From a virus: a stretch of 43,028 nt of DNA. Below the pieces are notes generated by a model. That model saw only the letters and a list, made by a program, of their open reading frames with translations. It did no database searches and had not been told where the DNA came from. Made by a program: the position numbers and the translations under genes. Location of the stretch: positions 1 to 43,028 of the IMG/VR virus record IMGVR_UViG_3300017527_000281; one strand, 5' to 3'. Of the stretch, positions 33,047 to 42,010 are shown piece after piece. The first letter of the stretch is position 1; each line of letters starts with the position of its first letter.

Positions 33047-33101
33047 GGATAGCCCGCCCCTACCGCGACGTGGGGACGCTGACGGTCTGGGGCGGGTACA
33101 C

Positions 33102-33178
33102 GGGCCTGAGAATAGTTTCGACGCCGGTTAAGGCCGAATGGCATCCGGTGGACGCGGGGGCAGTACCCGCCAGGTCCA
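33102..33178 (+). ncRNA. Miniature tmRNA-like tRNA-like domain, copy 1
   Basis: The 77-base element has a 7-bp acceptor (GGGCCTG, 33102-33108, with CAGGTCC, 33171-33177) including G3-U70, a D-region AGAATAGTTTCGAC with no D-stem, a 6-bp middle arm (33122-33127 with 33145-33150), a 5-bp T-stem (GCGGG/CCCGC) and A at position 73. This is the plan of tmRNA's tRNA-like domain without the tag-coding region. The T-loop is GGCAGTA, not the usual TTCRANY. No encoded CCA follows. It lies in the 33047-33222 gap, which has no gene. Confidence 0.55.
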
Positions 33179-33222
33179 TTGGTAACATTGAACAGGCAAT
33201 AGCAGACAAGGAGGAAACAGAG

Positions 33223-33576
33223 ATGGACTGCAACGAATTGACAGCACTGGCGGAACGATTCCCAGGCGCGACGCTGGCAGAGATCGCCGCGCTGTTGTCG
33301 GGGAATGTCACCGATGATCCGGGTCCGTGGCGACTCGGGCAGGCATACCACATCCGCACCGTAACGAACTACTGGATCGGGCGGCTCGTGTCTGTTAGCA
33401 ATCAAGAGTTGGTACTGGAGGACGCGACGTGGATCGCAAGCACCGGGCACTTCTCGGACTTTTTCAGCGACGGCCCGGACGAATGCGAACCTGTGGACGG
33501 ACCCGTGATCGTCGGGCGCGGATCGATCGTAGACGCGCAGCTCTGGACGATCCAGATCCCGAGGGCACAGAAATGA
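33223..33576 (+). CDS. Hypothetical protein, 117 aa
   Basis: The ATG at 33223 has AGGAGG 8 bases upstream; an earlier in-frame start lies inside the tRNA-like element and is less likely. MDCNELTALAERFPGATLAEIAALLSGNVTDD is helical, followed by a beta region (AYHIRTVTNYWIGRLVSVSNQELVLEDATWIASTGHFSDFFSDG). The pattern resembles short phage proteins with SH3-like or beta-barrel cores that are found beside replication genes. The function is unknown. The gene ends in ATGA overlap with the SR-repeat ORF. Confidence 0.6.
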   Translation: MDCNELTALAERFPGATLAEIAALLSGNVTDDPGPWRLGQAYHIRTVTNYWIGRLVSVSNQELVLEDATWIASTGHFSDFFSDGPDECEPVDGPVIVGRGSIVDAQLWTIQIPRAQK

Positions 33577-33791
33577 ACGCAGCGATTGCTCGGACTGGGT
33601 ATGATCAGTCGCGGTCGCGGTCGCGGTCGGGGTCGTGGTCGCGGTCGGGGCCGTGGTCGCGGTCGCGGTCGCGGTCGCGGTCGCGGTCGGGGTCGTGGTC
33701 GTGGTCGCGGTCGGGGTCGTGGTCGTGGTCGTGGTCGGGGTCGCGGTCGGGGTCGTGGTCGGGGTCGCGGTCGGGGTCGGGGCCGTGGTAA
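33573..33791 (+). CDS. Ser-(Arg/Gly/Trp) dipeptide repeat protein
   Basis: 72 residues: MNAAIARTGYDQ followed by 30 dipeptides. The second residue of each is Arg, Gly or Trp (two dipeptides start with Pro), set by the variable base of a TCGNGG hexamer. The ATG overlaps the preceding stop (ATGA) and has GAGGGCACAG upstream, which favours this frame over the Gly-Arg and Val-Ala frames also open through the array. The product is strongly basic and could bind RNA or DNA in a disordered form, like RS/RGG tails. It could also be only a by-product of the repeat. Confidence 0.5.
   Translation: MNAAIARTGYDQSRSRSRSGSWSRSGPWSRSRSRSRSRSGSWSWSRSGSWSWSWSGSRSGSWSGSRSGSGPW
33609..33788. repeat. TCGNGG hexamer array, 30 units
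   Basis: There are thirty consecutive 6-base units with the pattern TCGNGG, in which N is C, G or T (never A); two units begin CCG. All frames on both strands stay open for long stretches. The unit is a multiple of 3, in contrast to the 5-base array near 1.7 kb. Confidence 0.95.
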
Positions 33792-33800
33792 CACTTTACA

Positions 33801-33964
33801 AGTTGATAACGGTGCGCCCGTCGGGGACGGTGCGCAGCAAGCGTGGCGGGTAACGAGGCGTTGCTGTCCTGGTCGCAACCGCCCGCACCGTTTCAAGCCT
33901 GCGCTGGTCGAAGGCTCACGCTCAGTGCGTGGGGTAGGCAACATCTAGGCCAGCGCGGGTTTTC
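33801..33964 (+). ncRNA. Structured RNA element, copy 1
   Basis: AACGGTGCG (33808-33816) pairs with CGCACCGTT (33884-33892); GCCTGCGCTGG (33897-33907) pairs with CCAGCGCGGGT (33950-33960) with two GU pairs, followed by TTTT. The same two stems occur in copy 2 with different interiors. Inside are smaller stems, for example AGCAA/TTGCT and CACGC/GCGTG. The second stem plus T run could end transcription. No protein gene is credible here. Confidence 0.55.
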
Positions 33965-33988
33965 TAGACTAGACAGGAGGTTGGTATT

Positions 33989-34153: not shown

Positions 34154-34169
34154 TCAGGCGCAGGCACAT

Positions 34170-34196
34170 CCCCCACGTGGGGAGAGGAGCAGAGAG
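34170..34196 (+). promoter_or_regulatory. Palindromic leader hairpin, copy 1
   Basis: CCCCACGTGGGG (34171-34182) is a 12-base palindrome followed by GGAGAGGAGCAGAGAG, which includes the ribosome site. The same 27 bases occur at 34776-34802 before another gene. The hairpin may regulate translation or act as a protein-binding site. Confidence 0.7.
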
Positions 34197-34406
34197 ATGG
34201 GACAGACATACGCGATCTATGAGGAACGAGGCCGCAACAAGGAGCTGCACAAGCTATTCGATTTCAGTTTCCTGCTGGGCACACCCCTGCCCGGCGACGT
34301 CATCGACACTGGGGAGCACGAGCGGGTCACCATTGGGTATCGGCAATGGACCGCACAAGGCAGGTTGATCCTGGTGACTCGACCCACTGGGCTGGTCCAA
34401 GCGTAG
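34197..34406 (+). CDS. Small hypothetical protein, 69 aa
   Basis: 69 residues from an ATG with GAGAGGAGC upstream. MGQTYAIYEERGRNKELHKLFDFSFLLGTPLPGDVIDTGEHERVTIGYRQW has a beta-rich, short folded core (ITIGYRQWTAQGRLILVTRP-like pattern). It ends 8 bases before the second tRNA-like element. No known motif. Confidence 0.55.
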   Translation: MGQTYAIYEERGRNKELHKLFDFSFLLGTPLPGDVIDTGEHERVTIGYRQWTAQGRLILVTRPTGLVQA

Positions 34407-34413
34407 CACCGTC

Positions 34414-34489
34414 GGGCCTGGAAATGGTTTCGACCTCCCGCAACGCCAAGCGCGAGCGGGGGACATCGGTTCGATTCCGATCAGGTCCA
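34414..34489 (+). ncRNA. Miniature tmRNA-like tRNA-like domain, copy 2
   Basis: The 76-base element has acceptor GGGCCTG (34414-34420)/CAGGTCC (34482-34488) with G3-U70 and A at position 73, D-region GAAATGGTTTCGAC, a 7-bp middle arm (34435-34441 with 34456-34462), T-stem ATCGG/CCGAT and loop TTCGATT. The D-region matches tmRNA's GGxTTCGAC signature with the same 14-base spacing, and G3-U70 is the alanyl-tRNA synthetase identity pair. There is no tag ORF and no encoded CCA (CACT follows). It lies in a region without a gene. Confidence 0.65.
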
Positions 34490-34500
34490 CTAGCAGCACA

Positions 34501-34770
34501 TTGACAAGTTGATAACGGTGCGGCAGCGAGGGCAGCTCGTCACAGTGACGTAACCTGGGGAGACCTTGCGGGGCTCAAGAGACCCAATAGTAGGCCATCA
34601 GGTAACTGAGCGACCTGGCCCGCACCGTTTCATAGCCTGCGCTGCAAAACGCCACCAATGGCAGGGTGGACGAATAGGGATCGCCTTCCCTACGTACTCG
34701 GAAAGCCCTATGTACGGGATCGGTGCATAGGGACAAGGGGTCCGGTTCGAACCCGGTGCGCAGCGCGGGC
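34501..34770 (+). ncRNA. Structured RNA element, copy 2
   Basis: AACGGTGCGG (34514-34523) pairs with CCGCACCGTT (34620-34629); GCCTGCGCTGC (34635-34645) pairs with GCAGCGCGGGC (34760-34770). Compared with copy 1, G-U changes to G-C at the base and G-C changes to C-G at the top of the second stem, so pairing is kept by compensatory change. A T-arm-like hairpin (CCGG TTCGAAC CCGG, 34742-34756) lies just inside the second stem. The interior of the first stem is different from copy 1. No gene lies in 34490-34802. Confidence 0.55.
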
Positions 34771-34775
34771 AACAC

Positions 34776-34802
34776 CCCCCACGTGGGGAGAGGAGCAGAG
34801 AG
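34776..34802 (+). promoter_or_regulatory. Palindromic leader hairpin, copy 2
   Basis: Identical over 27 bases to 34170-34196, again directly before a start codon (GTG at 34803). Confidence 0.7.
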
Positions 34803-34949
34803 GTGATCACATTCCTGATCTGGATCATAGAGAACATCGACGCGATAGGCGCGGTCCTTTGCCGCGGCGCGCTGGTACTGTTCACGATCTCGGTACTCTG
34901 GACTGTATGGCTGATGACACACGCACCAGAATGCCCGGACTGTGAGTGA
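34803..34949 (+). CDS. Small membrane protein, 48 aa
   Basis: GTG at 34803 preceded by GGAGAGGAGC. The product MITFLIWIIENIDAIGAVLC then GALVLFTISVLWTVWLMTH has two hydrophobic segments with a short polar end ECPDCE (a CxxC pair). The second segment is a likely TM helix. The end overlaps the next start by GTGA. Early phage membrane peptides of this sort often modify host physiology; function is unknown. Confidence 0.55.
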   Translation: MITFLIWIIENIDAIGAVLCRGALVLFTISVLWTVWLMTHAPECPDCE

Positions 34950-35169
34950 CCACGTGACCCTCTCCCGTGACCAAGCAGCACGCCCGCCGGCAACCACCAA
35001 CGTTCGCGGCAACTATCGCGTGGGCGTCTACTGCCACCAATGCGAGGCGCCGCGCGTGTTCAAGTTCGACACGGGACATTGGGTGTGTACGGAATGCTGG
35101 TTCGTCGAGCTGGACGCGGGCGGGAACCTGGCACCGAGTCCGTGGGTGAGTAGGGAGGATTCCACTTGA
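34942..35169 (+). CDS. Zinc-ribbon small protein, 75 aa
   Basis: 75 residues from a GTG overlapping the upstream stop. The core YRVGVYCHQCEAPRVFKFDTGHWVCTECWFVELD contains two CxxC pairs in zinc-ribbon spacing. Basic N-terminus (SRDQAARPP). It could be a nucleic acid or protein binder. A sigma70 promoter overlaps its last codons (35166). Confidence 0.6.
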   Translation: MSDHVTLSRDQAARPPATTNVRGNYRVGVYCHQCEAPRVFKFDTGHWVCTECWFVELDAGGNLAPSPWVSREDST

Positions 35170-35194
35170 CAAGCGGGAGCAGATCGGTTATAAT
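35166..35194 (+). promoter_or_regulatory. Perfect sigma70 promoter for helicase-methylase unit
   Basis: TTGACA (35166-35171), exactly 17 bases, TATAAT (35189-35194). The start of transcription would be near 35201, giving a leader of about 157 bases before the ATG at 35358. It is a second, internal promoter of the rightward unit. Confidence 0.85.
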
Positions 35195-35357: not shown

Positions 35358-37682
35358 ATGAACCCGTATCAGGAGTTTCTCAAGTCCAAGATTCTGATGG
35401 TACCGCCAAAAGGAAAAGAGGTAGACCCAAACGACATCCACCCGCTGTTGTTCCCTTTTCAGCGTGATGTCACCACATGGTCAATTCGCAAGGGACGCGC
35501 TGCCGTGTTTCTGGACACAGGACTCGGAAAGACCTTTGTCCAGCTTGAGTGGGCGCGGCTGATAGGAGAAAATACGCTCATCATTGCGCCGCTATCTGTG
35601 TCCCGGCAGACTGTGCGAGAAGCGCAAAAGATCGATCTCGATGTTCGGTATGTTCGGGGAATGGACGAAATGGACCCCAACCACAAACTGTGGATCACCA
35701 ACTATGAGATGGCAGAGCATTTTGACATGTCGCAGTTTGGCGCCGTGGTGCTGGATGAGTCGAGCATACTCAAGGCCATCAACAGCAAAACTCGCAAGCG
35801 CCTGACAGAAACCTGCCAAGTCATACCCTATCGGCTGTGTTGCACCGCTACTCCTGCACCTAATGATTACATCGAGATCGGCAATCATGCTCAATTCCTG
35901 GGCATTGCCTCCCAGTCTGAAATGTTGGCGATGTTTTTCATCAATGCCAATAAAGAGCACACCTATACCTATGGCGGCAAGACCTATCACCGCAAGGGCA
36001 GCAACAAGGGCGGGCAGGAGTGGCGGCTCAAGCATCACGGAGAGCAAGCGTTTTTCCGCTGGCTGTCCACCTGGGCAATCACGATGACAAAGCCCTCTGA
36101 CCTCGGCTACGATGATGATGGATTCATTTTGCCGCCCTTGAATATCATCCCCACATTTGTCCAGATTGACAACTATGAGGCTGACGATCAACTATTCTTT
36201 ACACATCTGAAAGGCATCAAACACAGATCCCAGGTACGCCGGGATACGTTACCACAACGGCTCGAAGTGCTGGCAGAGCTGGTCAACAACTCGGACGAAC
36301 AGTGGATTATATGGGCGGGGCTGAACGAGGAAAGCAAAGCCGCCACGGCCGCGATCGATGGCGCCGTAGAGGTACGCGGAGATCAGCCACCAGATTACAA
36401 GGCTCAGACCTTTGAGCAGTTCCAAGACGGCGAGGTCAAGGTGCTAGTCACCAAGACAAAGATCGGCGGGTTCGGCCTCAACATGCAGAATGCCCACAAC
36501 ATGGCATTTCTTGGGTTGTCCGATAGTTGGGAGAGCTACTATCAGGCTGTTCGCCGAGAGTGGAGATACCGACAGAAATATCCGGTCAACGTCCATATCA
36601 TTATGTCATCGCTTGAATCAGAGATATACCAGAACGTGATGCGCAAAGACGCAATGGCCGCACGGCTGCGGTCTGGTTTGGTTGAACAAATCAAAGAATA
36701 TGAGAAAGGGGAACTTGAGATGATAGACACAGAGCGCAGCATTTATGATGAGGACATTGTGCAAGGCGAAAACTGGACCGCGATGCTAGGCGATTCCTGT
36801 AAGCGAATGGGAGAGATCGCAACAGACAGCATTGACTTGTCTGTGTACTCGCCCCCTTTTGCAGACCTGTACACATACACAGACTCAGAGCGTGACCTCG
36901 GCAACTGCAAAGATTGGGGCGAGTTCTTTGGACACTATGCCTACATCGTGCGGGAGCTGCTCAGAATCACCAAGCCGGGACGCTTGACCTGCTGTCACTG
37001 TATGGACATTCCCGCAATGATGCAAAAAGACGGCTGGATGGGCCTGAAAGACTTTTCCGGCGCTCTCATTCAGGCATACACCCAAGAGGGCTGGACGCTT
37101 CACGATCGAGTTGTTATTGACAAGAACCCGCAGGCGCAGGCTATCCGCACTCACTCCCACGGGCTGCTGTTCAAGACCCTGGACAAAGACTCGATCCGCT
37201 CTCACACTGCTATACCCGATCAGATACTTGTGTTCCGCAAGGATGGCGATAACCAGAATCCAGTACGCCCAGTCGAAAACGGCGATATGGATAATGAGGT
37301 CTGGATTCAGTGGGCGCGCCCGATCTGGTATGCCGCTGATTATACCCCGGCACAATTGCCCAATCCAGGCGGCGGCATCTCTGAGACGGGAACGCTGCAG
37401 TTCGGCAAGGCGCGGGGCACAGGAGACGAGAAGCACATCTGCCCACTGCAGCTCGGAACCATCGAGCGGTGCATCAAACTGTGGAGCAACCCCGGCGAGA
37501 CTGTTTTCAGCCCGTTCGCCGGCATTGGCAGTGAGGGATACCAGGCTTTGAGCTTTGGGCGCAAGTTCATCGGGATCGAATTGAAACCGTCTTACTTTGC
37601 GATTATGCTGGAGAATCTCAACAAGTCTGAAATCAAAGCCAATACGCCTGACCTGTTCTCCTTGGCAGGGATTGCGGTATGA
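35358..37682 (+). CDS. SNF2-type helicase/DNA methyltransferase fusion
   Basis: 774 residues; ATG with TAGGAGGAG upstream. Helicase part: DTGLGKT (53-59, Walker A), VLDES (131-135, motif II), TATPAPND (163-170, motif III), KTKIGGFGLNMQNAH (366-380, motif V) and QAVRREWRYRQ (396-406, motif VI). Methyltransferase part: VYSPPF (496-501, catalytic motif IV) precedes FAGIGSEG (720-727, SAM motif I) and FIGIELKPSYF, the beta-class order of N6-adenine/N4-cytosine enzymes. The fusion probably modifies DNA while remodelling it, for replication or restriction evasion. The end overlaps the next gene by ATGA. Confidence 0.88.
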   Translation: MNPYQEFLKSKILMVPPKGKEVDPNDIHPLLFPFQRDVTTWSIRKGRAAVFLDTGLGKTFVQLEWARLIGENTLIIAPLSVSRQTVREAQKIDLDVRYVRGMDEMDPNHKLWITNYEMAEHFDMSQFGAVVLDESSILKAINSKTRKRLTETCQVIPYRLCCTATPAPNDYIEIGNHAQFLGIASQSEMLAMFFINANKEHTYTYGGKTYHRKGSNKGGQEWRLKHHGEQAFFRWLSTWAITMTKPSDLGYDDDGFILPPLNIIPTFVQIDNYEADDQLFFTHLKGIKHRSQVRRDTLPQRLEVLAELVNNSDEQWIIWAGLNEESKAATAAIDGAVEVRGDQPPDYKAQTFEQFQDGEVKVLVTKTKIGGFGLNMQNAHNMAFLGLSDSWESYYQAVRREWRYRQKYPVNVHIIMSSLESEIYQNVMRKDAMAARLRSGLVEQIKEYEKGELEMIDTERSIYDEDIVQGENWTAMLGDSCKRMGEIATDSIDLSVYSPPFADLYTYTDSERDLGNCKDWGEFFGHYAYIVRELLRITKPGRLTCCHCMDIPAMMQKDGWMGLKDFSGALIQAYTQEGWTLHDRVVIDKNPQAQAIRTHSHGLLFKTLDKDSIRSHTAIPDQILVFRKDGDNQNPVRPVENGDMDNEVWIQWARPIWYAADYTPAQLPNPGGGISETGTLQFGKARGTGDEKHICPLQLGTIERCIKLWSNPGETVFSPFAGIGSEGYQALSFGRKFIGIELKPSYFAIMLENLNKSEIKANTPDLFSLAGIAV

Positions 37683-38455
37683 GAAAATACGATCTGCCCG
37701 TTGATATGATTTTCAGCATCACGCCTACAGACCCCCTTGCCTTTATGGCGGCGCGAATGGGGTTCTTGATTGGCACAAACAGCGGGCAGAAATGTCTGGT
37801 GGAACGCCCAGAACATTATACATGGGCATTCCCTATTTCTTTCATAGACAATGAATTCAAGAAGTACGACCACGATGCACATATGGCAGCAATCAAGCAG
37901 CATCGGCCCAAATATGCCACTGTGCGAGATGCAATGACCTCAGTGCAATGCTGTCGCGCAGGGATTGAGCATTTTGACCTTGACATCATCCTGGCGTGGG
38001 CTGAGGAAGTAGAGCAGTATGCCGAGAACGTGATAGTCATTCCCAAGTGGGATTGTTTGGCAGAAATTCCAGAACGATTCATCCTGGGATACTCGATACC
38101 ATCACGCTATGCTGGAACCCCTCTCCCTTTTGAGATGTTCAGAGGCCGAAAGATTCACCTGCTCGGCGGTAGTTGGAAAAAGCAACTCAAATACCTGCAA
38201 TTTGCCAAAGATGACATCGTAAGCCTGGACAATAACAATCTCTGGAAATGCTCAGTGTATGGGGGATTCGACTGGCCCGATGGCAAGAAGGGATCGCTCC
38301 ATGATCTAGGAATCACAGAACTAACTAGCCCGATGTATGCCAGCGTAGCAATGAGTCTCGGGCATATCGCCACAAAGCTACATCAACTCTACAACGAACC
38401 ACAAAAATCAATCGAATTCGCAGTACAACTACCAGGAATGGAGAAAGTGACATGA
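37679..38455 (+). CDS. DpdA-like DNA transglycosylase (candidate)
   Basis: 258 residues. IVIPKWDCLAEIPERFILGYSIPSRYAGTPLPFEMF followed by RGRKIHLLGGSWKKQLKYLQFAKDDIVSLD resembles phage DpdA/TGT-like proteins (TIM barrel), which exchange guanine in DNA for a 7-deazaguanine base. DxxILAWAEEVEQYAENV is another barrel block. The length (258) is shorter than DpdA1. The following gene is a YhhQ-type queuosine-precursor transporter, which makes this function more likely. It overlaps both neighbours. Tests of the active site and of 7-deazaguanine in the virion DNA are lacking. Confidence 0.6.
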   Translation: MRKYDLPVDMIFSITPTDPLAFMAARMGFLIGTNSGQKCLVERPEHYTWAFPISFIDNEFKKYDHDAHMAAIKQHRPKYATVRDAMTSVQCCRAGIEHFDLDIILAWAEEVEQYAENVIVIPKWDCLAEIPERFILGYSIPSRYAGTPLPFEMFRGRKIHLLGGSWKKQLKYLQFAKDDIVSLDNNNLWKCSVYGGFDWPDGKKGSLHDLGITELTSPMYASVAMSLGHIATKLHQLYNEPQKSIEFAVQLPGMEKVT

Positions 38456-39030
38456 TTGTAATTTGTGCATACATCGCCGCTCAGATGTTTTCAGACATTA
38501 TGAGCCTCAAGATAGTCTCGTTATTTGGTCTTTCAATGGACGCGGGAACCCTGATCTATCCCATCACGTTCACGCTCCGCGATTTGGTCCACAAGACATT
38601 AGGCAAACAGAAAGCACGGCAGCTCATTGTTGTCGCCGCCGCCATCAATGTCGTGATGGCATTGCTCTTTTGGGTAACAAGCATCCTGCCATACGACTTG
38701 GGCGCAGGACCACAACCAGATTGGGATAGCGTTCTCGCTCCTGTATGGCGCATCGTTGTGGCTTCGATTGTGGCCGAAGTGCTCAGTGAGTTTCTGGACA
38801 CAGAAATGTATCACCTGTGGGTCACAAAGATCACGCAGCGATACCAGTGGATGCGCGTGTTGGTCAGTAATACAGTTTCGGTTCCTGTTGACAGCCTGGT
38901 CTTTTGCTGGATCGCTTTTGGTGGCATCCTGCCGGCAGCTATCGTGTGGGCAATTGTGTGGGCCAATGTTCTGCTCAAGGGTGCCTGCACTCTGCTTTCA
39001 TTACCTATGATCTACGCAGTCAAAGAGTAA
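38452..39030 (+). CDS. YhhQ/QPTR-type queuosine-precursor transporter
   Basis: 192 residues, ATGA overlap with the previous gene. FSDIMSLKIVSLFGLSMDAGTLIYPITFTLRDLVHKTLGKQKAR matches the COG1738 (YhhQ, Vut) signature. About six hydrophobic segments (near 2-20, 32-46, 57-80, 95-115, 140-158, 162-185) alternate with short loops; a DTEMYHLW and VTKITQRY loop follow the fourth. It should import preQ0, preQ1 or queuine into the cell. The coupling with a DpdA-like gene suggests supply of 7-deazaguanine for phage DNA or for tRNA modification. Confidence 0.8.
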   Translation: MIVICAYIAAQMFSDIMSLKIVSLFGLSMDAGTLIYPITFTLRDLVHKTLGKQKARQLIVVAAAINVVMALLFWVTSILPYDLGAGPQPDWDSVLAPVWRIVVASIVAEVLSEFLDTEMYHLWVTKITQRYQWMRVLVSNTVSVPVDSLVFCWIAFGGILPAAIVWAIVWANVLLKGACTLLSLPMIYAVKE

Positions 39031-40867: not shown

Positions 40868-41316
40868 CTCTCCTAGCCCTAGACGCCAGCACAACCGCCG
40901 TGGGGTGGGCGCTGTTTGACGACGGTGACTACCGCGAGTCGGGCGTGTACGTGCCGGACGGCGATGACTGGGTAGAGCGGGTGATCAACATTGACCGCTG
41001 GCTGTACAACCTGTGCCTCGAGTTCGACGCGGTAGGCTACGAGATCGCCACAGGCAACCGGGGGAATATGGCAACCAACCGGAAACTAGGCGCGGTAGAG
41101 TTTGTGGTGCGCCAGTTCTGCAAGCTGCAGCATATGGAGCTGACCACCGTCACCGCGTCACAAGTCAAGGCGACGGGATGTCACAAGAACGCACCGTGGG
41201 TAGCGACGACGATCAAGCGGGGCCGGTTCCCCGAGGCCGACGTGGTGGGTGGCGACGAGGCCGACGCGATCGGCGTGGGCCTGGCGTGCTGGGGGAAGGT
41301 GAGGGCCAATGTCTGA
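40864..41316 (+). CDS. RuvC-like Holliday junction resolvase
   Basis: 150 residues from a GTG. LLALDASTTAVGWALFD is motif I (D7), FDAVGYEIATG supplies the second acidic residue, NRKLGAVEFVVRQF is the helix block, and ASQVKATGCHKN with DEADAIGVGLACW the last acidic pair. This is the RNase H-fold RuvC-type resolvase of phages, which cuts branched DNA before packaging. Length is typical. Confidence 0.75.
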   Translation: MTLLALDASTTAVGWALFDDGDYRESGVYVPDGDDWVERVINIDRWLYNLCLEFDAVGYEIATGNRGNMATNRKLGAVEFVVRQFCKLQHMELTTVTASQVKATGCHKNAPWVATTIKRGRFPEADVVGGDEADAIGVGLACWGKVRANV

Positions 41317-42010
41317 AATGATCAGTTTCGGTGCTGGCGTCAATAGCGTGGCGATGACCATTATGCTCGTGAACGACGGGTGGCGTGGCCCGATCGTGTT
41401 TGCGGACACCGGCGGGGAATGGCCTGAGACGTACTGCTATATCCGCTACTTTGAGCGGGAATGGTTGGGACCGAGGGGGTTGGAGATCACGCGACTGTCG
41501 CCAGGGTCGGAATGGCACGGGAAACGCGCGCAGGTGACGCTAGAGCAGTACTGTCTCGACCATGGTATTGTGCCATTGCTGGCGATGCGCTGGTGTACTC
41601 AGGCGTGGAAACAGCGGCCCGTCACAAAATGGGCGGGGGCCATGGTGCGCCTAGTGGGGCTGTCTGCCAGTGAACCGCGCCGCGCCGCACGGCAGGAGCC
41701 TGGCGTGCGCTTGCCGCTATTTGAGGAGTGTATCACCCGCGAGGAGTGCCAGCGCATCATCGCACGCGAGGGACTGGACTATCCGATCAAGTCAGGCTGT
41801 TTTTTCTGCCCTGGTCAACCGCTGGCGGCGTGGCGGCGATTGTACCACGAACACCCGGACCTATACGAGCGGGCGATCGCGCTTGAGGATAACGCCACGA
41901 CCGCGCTAGATCCTCACGGCATCAGCCTCCGAGAGCACGCCCGCCGCCGCTGGGAGGGGCAGATGCAGATGGATCTGAGTGCATGGATACCGTGTCTGTG
42001 TACGCTGTAA
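41309..42010 (+). CDS. PAPS-reductase-like (DndC-like) phage protein
   Basis: 233 residues. ISFGAGVNSVAMTIML takes the place of the PP-loop (normally SGGxDS), followed by IVFADTGGEWPETYCYI, the typical block of phage PAPS reductase/DndC-like proteins. RWCTQAWKQRPV, SGCFFCPGQP (two Cys) and ASEPRR fit the group, which has four Cys. An ATP-pyrophosphatase activity is possible; role unknown. In phages it may act in DNA modification or nucleotide metabolism. Overlaps the resolvase gene by 8 bases. Confidence 0.7.
   Translation: MSEMISFGAGVNSVAMTIMLVNDGWRGPIVFADTGGEWPETYCYIRYFEREWLGPRGLEITRLSPGSEWHGKRAQVTLEQYCLDHGIVPLLAMRWCTQAWKQRPVTKWAGAMVRLVGLSASEPRRAARQEPGVRLPLFEECITREECQRIIAREGLDYPIKSGCFFCPGQPLAAWRRLYHEHPDLYERAIALEDNATTALDPHGISLREHARRRWEGQMQMDLSAWIPCLCTL

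Follow-up and report, generated by a model that had tools for sequence, protein, structure and literature searches.

Two phage elements predicted to be tmRNAs reduced to the tRNA-like domain belong to a large covarying family

The window, an IMG/VR virus record of 43,028 bases, encodes phage proteins including a portal protein, terminase-like and Mu F-like proteins, a helicase-methyltransferase, and a DnaD-like replication protein. Two short structured elements, called copy 1 and copy 2, lie on its + strand with a spacing of 1312 nt (Table 1). A sequence-only reading had described copy 1 as the second of two tRNA-like elements 1.3 kb apart; its boundaries proved exact, its arms pair, and the measured spacing agrees. 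The ORF directly 3′ of copy 1 matched nothing in PHROGs or in Pfam, the latter searched with the longer ORF 33070-33576. Two further structured units, A and B, are partly alike, and TTKACAAGTTGATAACGGTGCG and GCCCGCACCGTTTCA are common to both.

Table 1. Positions of the two elements, the parts of copy 1, and neighboring features in the window
Feature	Coordinates	Strand	Description	Score or support
Copy 1, predicted mini-tmRNA (tRNA-like-domain-only tmRNA)	33102-33178	+	77 nt; GGC-type T-loop	Family model 77.4 bits, E 7.6e-17 (seed of the model)
Copy 1 acceptor, 5′ strand	33102-33108	+	GGGCCTG; pairs with CAGGTCC (33171-33177); G3.U70 and A73 (33178) are the alanine identity	
Copy 1 D-loop	33114-33122	+	AGTTTCGAC; A18 (33114), G19 (33115)	
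Copy 1 P2 stem	33123-33149	+	GCCGG/CCGGT with short cap, inner hairpin GCC/GGC; occupies the place of the mRNA-like domain	Folds; P2 covaries in the family
Copy 1 T-arm	33154-33170	+	GCGGG-GGCAGTA-CCCGC; preceded by GGAC (33150-33153)	Loop class is that of the Rfam alpha_tmRNA consensus, 19.8 bits
117-aa ORF directly 3′ of copy 1	33209-33576	+	ATG 33223; ribosome-binding site AGGAGG (33209-33214)	
Structured unit A, between the copies	33785-33970	+	Contains Rfam DUF3800-VIII RNA (33893-33964)	Rfam 43.5 bits, gathering 40.2; fold z -3.2
Copy 2, predicted mini-tmRNA (tRNA-like-domain-only tmRNA)	34414-34489	+	76 nt; T-loop TTCGATT; G18 (34426), G3.U70, A73 (34489)	Family model 71.8 bits, E 1.8e-15 (seed of the model)
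Structured unit B, 3′ of copy 2	34490-34775	+	T-arm-like hairpin CCGGTTCGAACCCGG; flanking stems common with unit A	Direct repeats D6 and D8; fold z -3.6

From 5′ to 3′, copy 1 reads GGGCCTG AGAATAGTTTCGAC GCCGGTTAAGGCCGAATGGCATCCGGT GGAC GCGGG-GGCAGTA-CCCGC CAGGTCC A, and copy 2 reads GGGCCTG GAAATGGTTTCGAC CTCCCGCAACGCCAAGCGCGAGCGGG GGAC ATCGG-TTCGATT-CCGAT CAGGTCC A. The 7-bp acceptor stem (GGGCCTG/CAGGTCC) with A73 is the same in both, and GGAC precedes the T-stem in each. The earlier claim of a repeated acceptor therefore stands, but the D-regions are not the same sequence, being identical at 11 of 14 positions. As had been proposed, the middle and T stems differ in sequence between the copies and are paired in both. 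Each copy also has the further hallmarks of a tmRNA tRNA-like domain (TLD), namely a 5-bp T-stem with a 7-nt loop and a tmRNA-type D-loop, GTTTCGAC, that ends in TTCGAC and has no D-stem. The 26 to 27 nt between the D-loop and GGAC replace the mRNA-like domain and join the 5′ and 3′ halves of the TLD by a short stem-loop, a DS6A-type feature whose short P2 cap leaves no space for pseudoknots, a resume codon, or a tag. The encoded sequence of neither copy includes a CCA end. Copy 1 folds into the proposed structure (-37.2 kcal/mol, z -2.8, with 0 of 200 shuffles as good), and copy 2, when folded without constraints, has a minimum-energy structure that departs from it.

In 91-base searches of each element alone, which are independent of the family model described below, the Rfam tmRNA model RF00023 aligned to copy 1 over positions 1-371 of 374 (23.5 bits, E 2.2e-8) and to copy 2 over positions 1-374 of 374 (42.2 bits, E 2.8e-16; 50.7 bits in another run), with about 300 model positions deleted in both alignments. 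The gathering score is 47, so that copy 1 falls below it and copy 2 falls above or below it depending on the run; many other family members exceed it. Rfam in E-value mode had initially returned 3′ halves only, and it was the single-element searches that gave end-to-end matches to ordinary tmRNA. Because RF00023 spans each element from one end to the other once its mRNA-like domain is skipped, we assign both elements to the tmRNA TLD: they are predicted phage-encoded tmRNAs with a short stem-loop in place of the mRNA-like domain and tag. The mRNA-like domain, tag frame, and pseudoknots of a full tmRNA are missing from both. A tRNA gene was rejected, since ARAGORN found neither a tRNA nor a tmRNA in the window and there is no D-stem and no anticodon arm with a 7-nt loop. 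A permuted two-piece tmRNA was likewise rejected, given that both copies have the ordinary 5′-to-3′ order with their halves within one RNA. Copy 1 is thus a tRNA-like element, as first described, but not a decayed duplicate tRNA, and its tmRNA domain had gone unrecognized.

The elements share with bacterial tmRNA (RF00023) the acceptor with G3.U70, the D-loop, GGAC, and the T-arm, but lack the pseudoknots and the tag frame, some 300 nt in all. Copy 1 shares its T-loop class, GGCRGYA, with the alphaproteobacterial and permuted tmRNAs (RF01849, RF04321) and has A18 as in the alphaproteobacterial consensus, but carries both halves in a single 77-nt RNA rather than in two pieces. Plastid tmRNAs of Mallomonadaceae that lack a CDS (~65 bp) are alike in TLD-only size and form; these are organelle genes, and the likeness is taken from their description (PMC11915505). 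The closest precedent is mycobacteriophage DS6A, whose tmRNA is described, in the passages of PMC4131195 and PMC11915505 that cite Mao et al. 2009, as a TLD only. As in the window phage, this gene would be little beyond the tRNA-like domain, with no tag frame, a likeness drawn from the published description. DS6A is the single phage case reported in those passages, whereas the window phage has two copies, one of which combines a GGC T-loop with A18.

Relatives of the two elements were collected by pattern scans, which gave at least 79 unique structured members of 63 to 82 nt, almost all from IMG/VR. A covariance model built from 26 members and run over the loci in hand gave 88 matches, 87 of them distinct. 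Note that both copies are among the 26 seeds, and their own scores (Table 1) are therefore not independent of the model; the next-best match in the window has 12.4 bits. The covariation test suggested by the earlier reading was passed strongly. Across the 17 pairs of the 87 distinct sequences, 98.2% of pair cells are paired; shuffling lowers this value to 64.9%, and sliding lowers it to 56% or less. Changes on both sides number 510 cells, as against 147 after shuffling and no more than 72 after sliding. Both sides vary in 13 of the 17 pairs. The 87-sequence alignment was fitted to the structure, and model-free anchored columns agree with it. The P2 stem covaries and is 94.7% paired; the inner hairpin of the cap is weakly supported (at least 3 bp in 79% of sequences and in 66% of shuffles). 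G3.U70 is found in all 87 distinct relatives, with acceptor pairs 4-6 varying and neighboring pairs covarying, and A73 in 79 of 79 members. The first scan had fixed G3.U70, and two later scans that left G3.U70 and A73 free still yielded G3.U70 only.

The family is large and mostly unannotated, and nearly all of its members are from phages. A tRNA lies within 300 nt in 15 of 79 cases, and the element sits unannotated in tRNA arrays of the Streptomyces phages LuckySocke, GiJojo, pSt2308, BRock, and Shaeky, with a hypothetical gene annotated over it in GiJojo; in Alone3 its D-loop is altered. Other genomes also carry two or more copies. No description of this large phage family was found in the literature searched. 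A TLD-only phage tmRNA was already known from DS6A; what is new is the predicted two-copy set with two elbow classes and the family itself. One phage with such a tmRNA has become a large covarying family that is unannotated even in well-annotated Streptomyces phages. Blastn of the region against INPHARED gave no similar DNA, copy 1 gave one weak match in a record that reads as a 3′ half only, and a query with another member (L076) matched mostly full or permuted tmRNAs. An ARAGORN "tmRNA" call over the member L026 was spurious, with an unidentified tag, and distant relatives of the helicase gene (45-49% identity) were without a mini-tmRNA. One locus (L060:8646-8720) has a weak second mini-tmRNA-like sequence of 28.1 bits, without GTTTCGAC, 791 nt before its good copy. 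A phage contig with a GGC-type mini-tmRNA and several tRNAs carries a ROOL RNA (L113:3627-4233, 319.8 bits).

The T-loop of copy 1, GGCAGTA, does break the TTCRANY rule, though it belongs to a normal tmRNA T-loop class. The Rfam alpha_tmRNA consensus has T-loop GGCgGUA and D-loop AGGAUCGAC; the combination of GGCAGTA with AGTTTCGAC is a known tmRNA elbow class and therefore does not represent decay. Copy 1 pairs A18 with a GGC loop, and copy 2 pairs G18 with a TTC loop. GGC loops occur in 12 relatives besides copy 1, and among the 87 distinct relatives A18 accompanies 55G (the GGC loops) in 12 of 13 sequences and occurs in 1 of the other 74 (Fisher p 9e-13, a value inflated by kinship among the sequences). 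Position 18 was unfixed in the search patterns; GTTTCGAC, GGAC, or the loop class was fixed in some scans. The coupling between positions 18 and 55 thereby offers evidence, drawn from natural sequences, that the elbow contact of tmRNA exists.

These data bear on the origin of the pair, which had been ascribed to duplication of one tRNA-like element within the phage followed by loss of the T-loop in copy 1. The identical acceptor stems and an overall identity of 62% speak for such an event, although 24% of all family pairs attain that value, and we consider it highly improbable given that alphaproteobacterial tmRNA and 12 other members also have GGC loops, which go together with A18. Recent duplication is further disfavored by T-arms that are identical at 6 of 17 positions, by more than 12 closer relatives of each copy in other genomes, and by a tree in which copy 1 joins the GGC-type members L028 and L113 and copy 2 joins L214 on a different branch (short sequences, modest support). 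Similarity of the upstream and downstream flanks is not significant; the downstream agreement reported earlier is confined to a shared 7-mer, ACATTGA (dinucleotide-shuffle p 0.11 to 0.38). Because the GGGCCTG acceptor is rare (6 of 87 members), some link between the copies is nevertheless favored, and they may descend from an older duplication that preceded the split of loop types. Integration often takes place at ssrA, and the 3′ end of this gene may be contained in the attachment site of a phage. Several of the blastn matches resemble attachment sites of this kind, which speaks for the elements being what integration or imprecise excision left behind of a host ssrA gene, but an origin of that sort is scarcely credible for elements whose 5′ and 3′ halves are both present and joined by a stem, and whose 87 sequences covary under strong pair-by-pair selection.

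A strict pattern was also run over 84,980 bacterial and archaeal genomes and matched three contigs, one of which is real; the other two (L258 and L259) are chance matches that the covariance model does not find. The real match (L257) lies in a Victivallales MAG that has its own 355-nt tmRNA, smpB, and five mini-tmRNAs. In the class around this MAG, mini-tmRNAs occur in 8 of 197 genomes, and the family model found none in 289 and 274 genomes of two other classes, a weak result in that few candidates per genome were scored. Genes for vWA, PP2C, kinase-like, and NYN RNase proteins are present on the contigs of the MAG, and one mini-tmRNA there adjoins WYL and Cas13b-like genes. PP2C_2 was detected (E ≤6.4e-27) on 5 of 10 mini-tmRNA-bearing contigs (G049:C33, G049:C184, G226:C149, G236:C190, and G169:C844), mostly together with vWA or kinase-like genes, at no more than 2 kb from the mini-tmRNA on four contigs and at ~7.4 kb on the fifth. 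One further mini-tmRNA in this class lies near a Csm3-like gene. Across the loci of the class (L257/L270 on CALXMJ010000033.1, L271, L272, L275, L279, L280, L282, and L284), the neighbors include vWA, PP2C, and kinase-like genes and, singly, WYL with Cas13b-like or Csm3-like genes.

Trans-translation is nearly universal in bacteria, and its manipulation by phages has, to our knowledge, been little studied. None of 48 virus records contained smpB, and full-length tmRNA was absent from all 24 viral or phage records that were inspected; the phage elements therefore depend on host factors. In tmRNA, the TLD is charged with alanine via a fully conserved G-U at the third acceptor pair, and the deformed D-arm contacts SmpB (PMC3985003; PMC8012679). 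Moreover, a molecule similar to the DS6A tmRNA strongly inhibits E. coli tmRNA, perhaps by titration of SmpB (PMC4131195; PMC11915505), and the inhibition held whether the molecule was chargeable or not (PMC4131195). We propose that mini-tmRNAs are alanylated, SmpB-binding competitors of host trans-translation, a reading to which we assign a probability of roughly 0.6. Host RNase P and 3′ processing would trim the RNA from the phage transcript, CCA would be added by the host, and AlaRS would charge it via G3.U70. Host SmpB would then bind the D-loop elbow and fill in for the absent anticodon arm, and the complex of Ala-TLD, SmpB, and EF-Tu would enter stalled ribosomes with no template to switch to. 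Through competition with host tmRNA, fewer nascent proteins, possibly those of the phage, would be tagged and degraded. The A18/GGC and G18/TTC combinations would be alternative ways of building one elbow, each perhaps suited to particular hosts or kinds of tmRNA. Because inhibition needed no charging and G3.U70 is nonetheless invariant in the family, pure titration of SmpB fails to explain the conservation, which suggests that charging matters in nature and provides testable ground for thinking so. Also against the competitor reading are the RF00023 score of copy 1, which is under the gathering score, and the presence of relatives in defense-like operons of some bacteria, which would not be expected of a simple decoy carried by phages.

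The invariant G3.U70 and A73 would equally imply charging if the elements were tagless tmRNAs, with the alanylated TLD taking the nascent chain and the peptidyl-TLD being released, for example by peptidyl-tRNA hydrolase. Ribosomes would then be freed and phage proteins spared tag-directed proteolysis by a molecule that is not an inhibitor. A parallel is offered by mitochondrial tmRNAs, which apparently have no tag frame either and are considered helpful (PMC11915505), but the known TLD-only construct inhibits tmRNA and does not replace it (PMC4131195), and release of the chain without a template has no known step; we regard this alternative as unlikely. A role off the ribosome, as an alanine-charged substrate, an RNase P-cut processing signal for an operon, or a part of a defense or antidefense system sensing tmRNA-like RNA, appears quite improbable. 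It draws on the position of copy 1, ~45 nt ahead of a gene whose start has a ribosome-binding site, and on the clustering of bacterial relatives with vWA-PP2C-kinase, Cas13b-like, and Csm3-like genes. Such a gene start is found within 120 nt in just 18 of 74 members, however, and the conserved D-loop and GGAC (partly fixed in the patterns) fit an SmpB-dependent tmRNA domain.

The bacterial gene neighborhoods recall TerY-P triads, in that vWA, PP2C, and kinase genes adjoin mini-tmRNAs in some bacteria. Those CoCoNuT systems that include TerY-P also have an SmpB-like domain, for which binding to tmRNA is predicted, and the passages of their description cited here mention no encoded tmRNA-like RNA (PMC11090510). 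In the class around the Victivallales MAG, the RNA may serve a defense system that targets RNA, as its sensor, bait, or effector. More broadly, but only tentatively, mini-tmRNAs might be a weapon common to both sides of phage-host conflict, by which phages would jam or redirect SmpB-dependent rescue and which bacteria would use in defense. If so, the TerY-P association, a purely computational lead, could tie tmRNA mimicry to defense systems. No TerY-P-type genes were seen near the elements in the window.

The window holds several other features around the pair. An ORF at 33601-33948 starts MIS(RG), contains ~30 RG units encoded by a GGTCGN repeat, and extends into the DUF3800-VIII RNA; the variation seen in it is almost wholly synonymous with respect to the RG frame. 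A 34-nt direct repeat (34166-34199 and 34772-34805, 94% identical) that includes CCCCCACGTGGGGAGAGGAGCAGAGAG precedes two small ORFs and is likely a repeated leader with a ribosome-binding site. The sequence CAAGTTGATAACGG, around 33800 and 34506, resembles a segment of Cas9 tracrRNA when reverse-complemented, a likeness that was set aside as chance, Rfam showing no tracrRNA in the window. A perfect sigma-70 promoter (TTGACA-17-TATAAT, 35166-35194) lies 5′ of the helicase-methyltransferase gene. Farther downstream, a member of the Vut_1 transporter family, of the queuosine precursor type, is encoded at 38452-39030, adjoining DUF6610 (37679-38455) and with a PAPS-reductase-like protein nearby (41309-42010); this set may point to 7-deazaguanine DNA modification.
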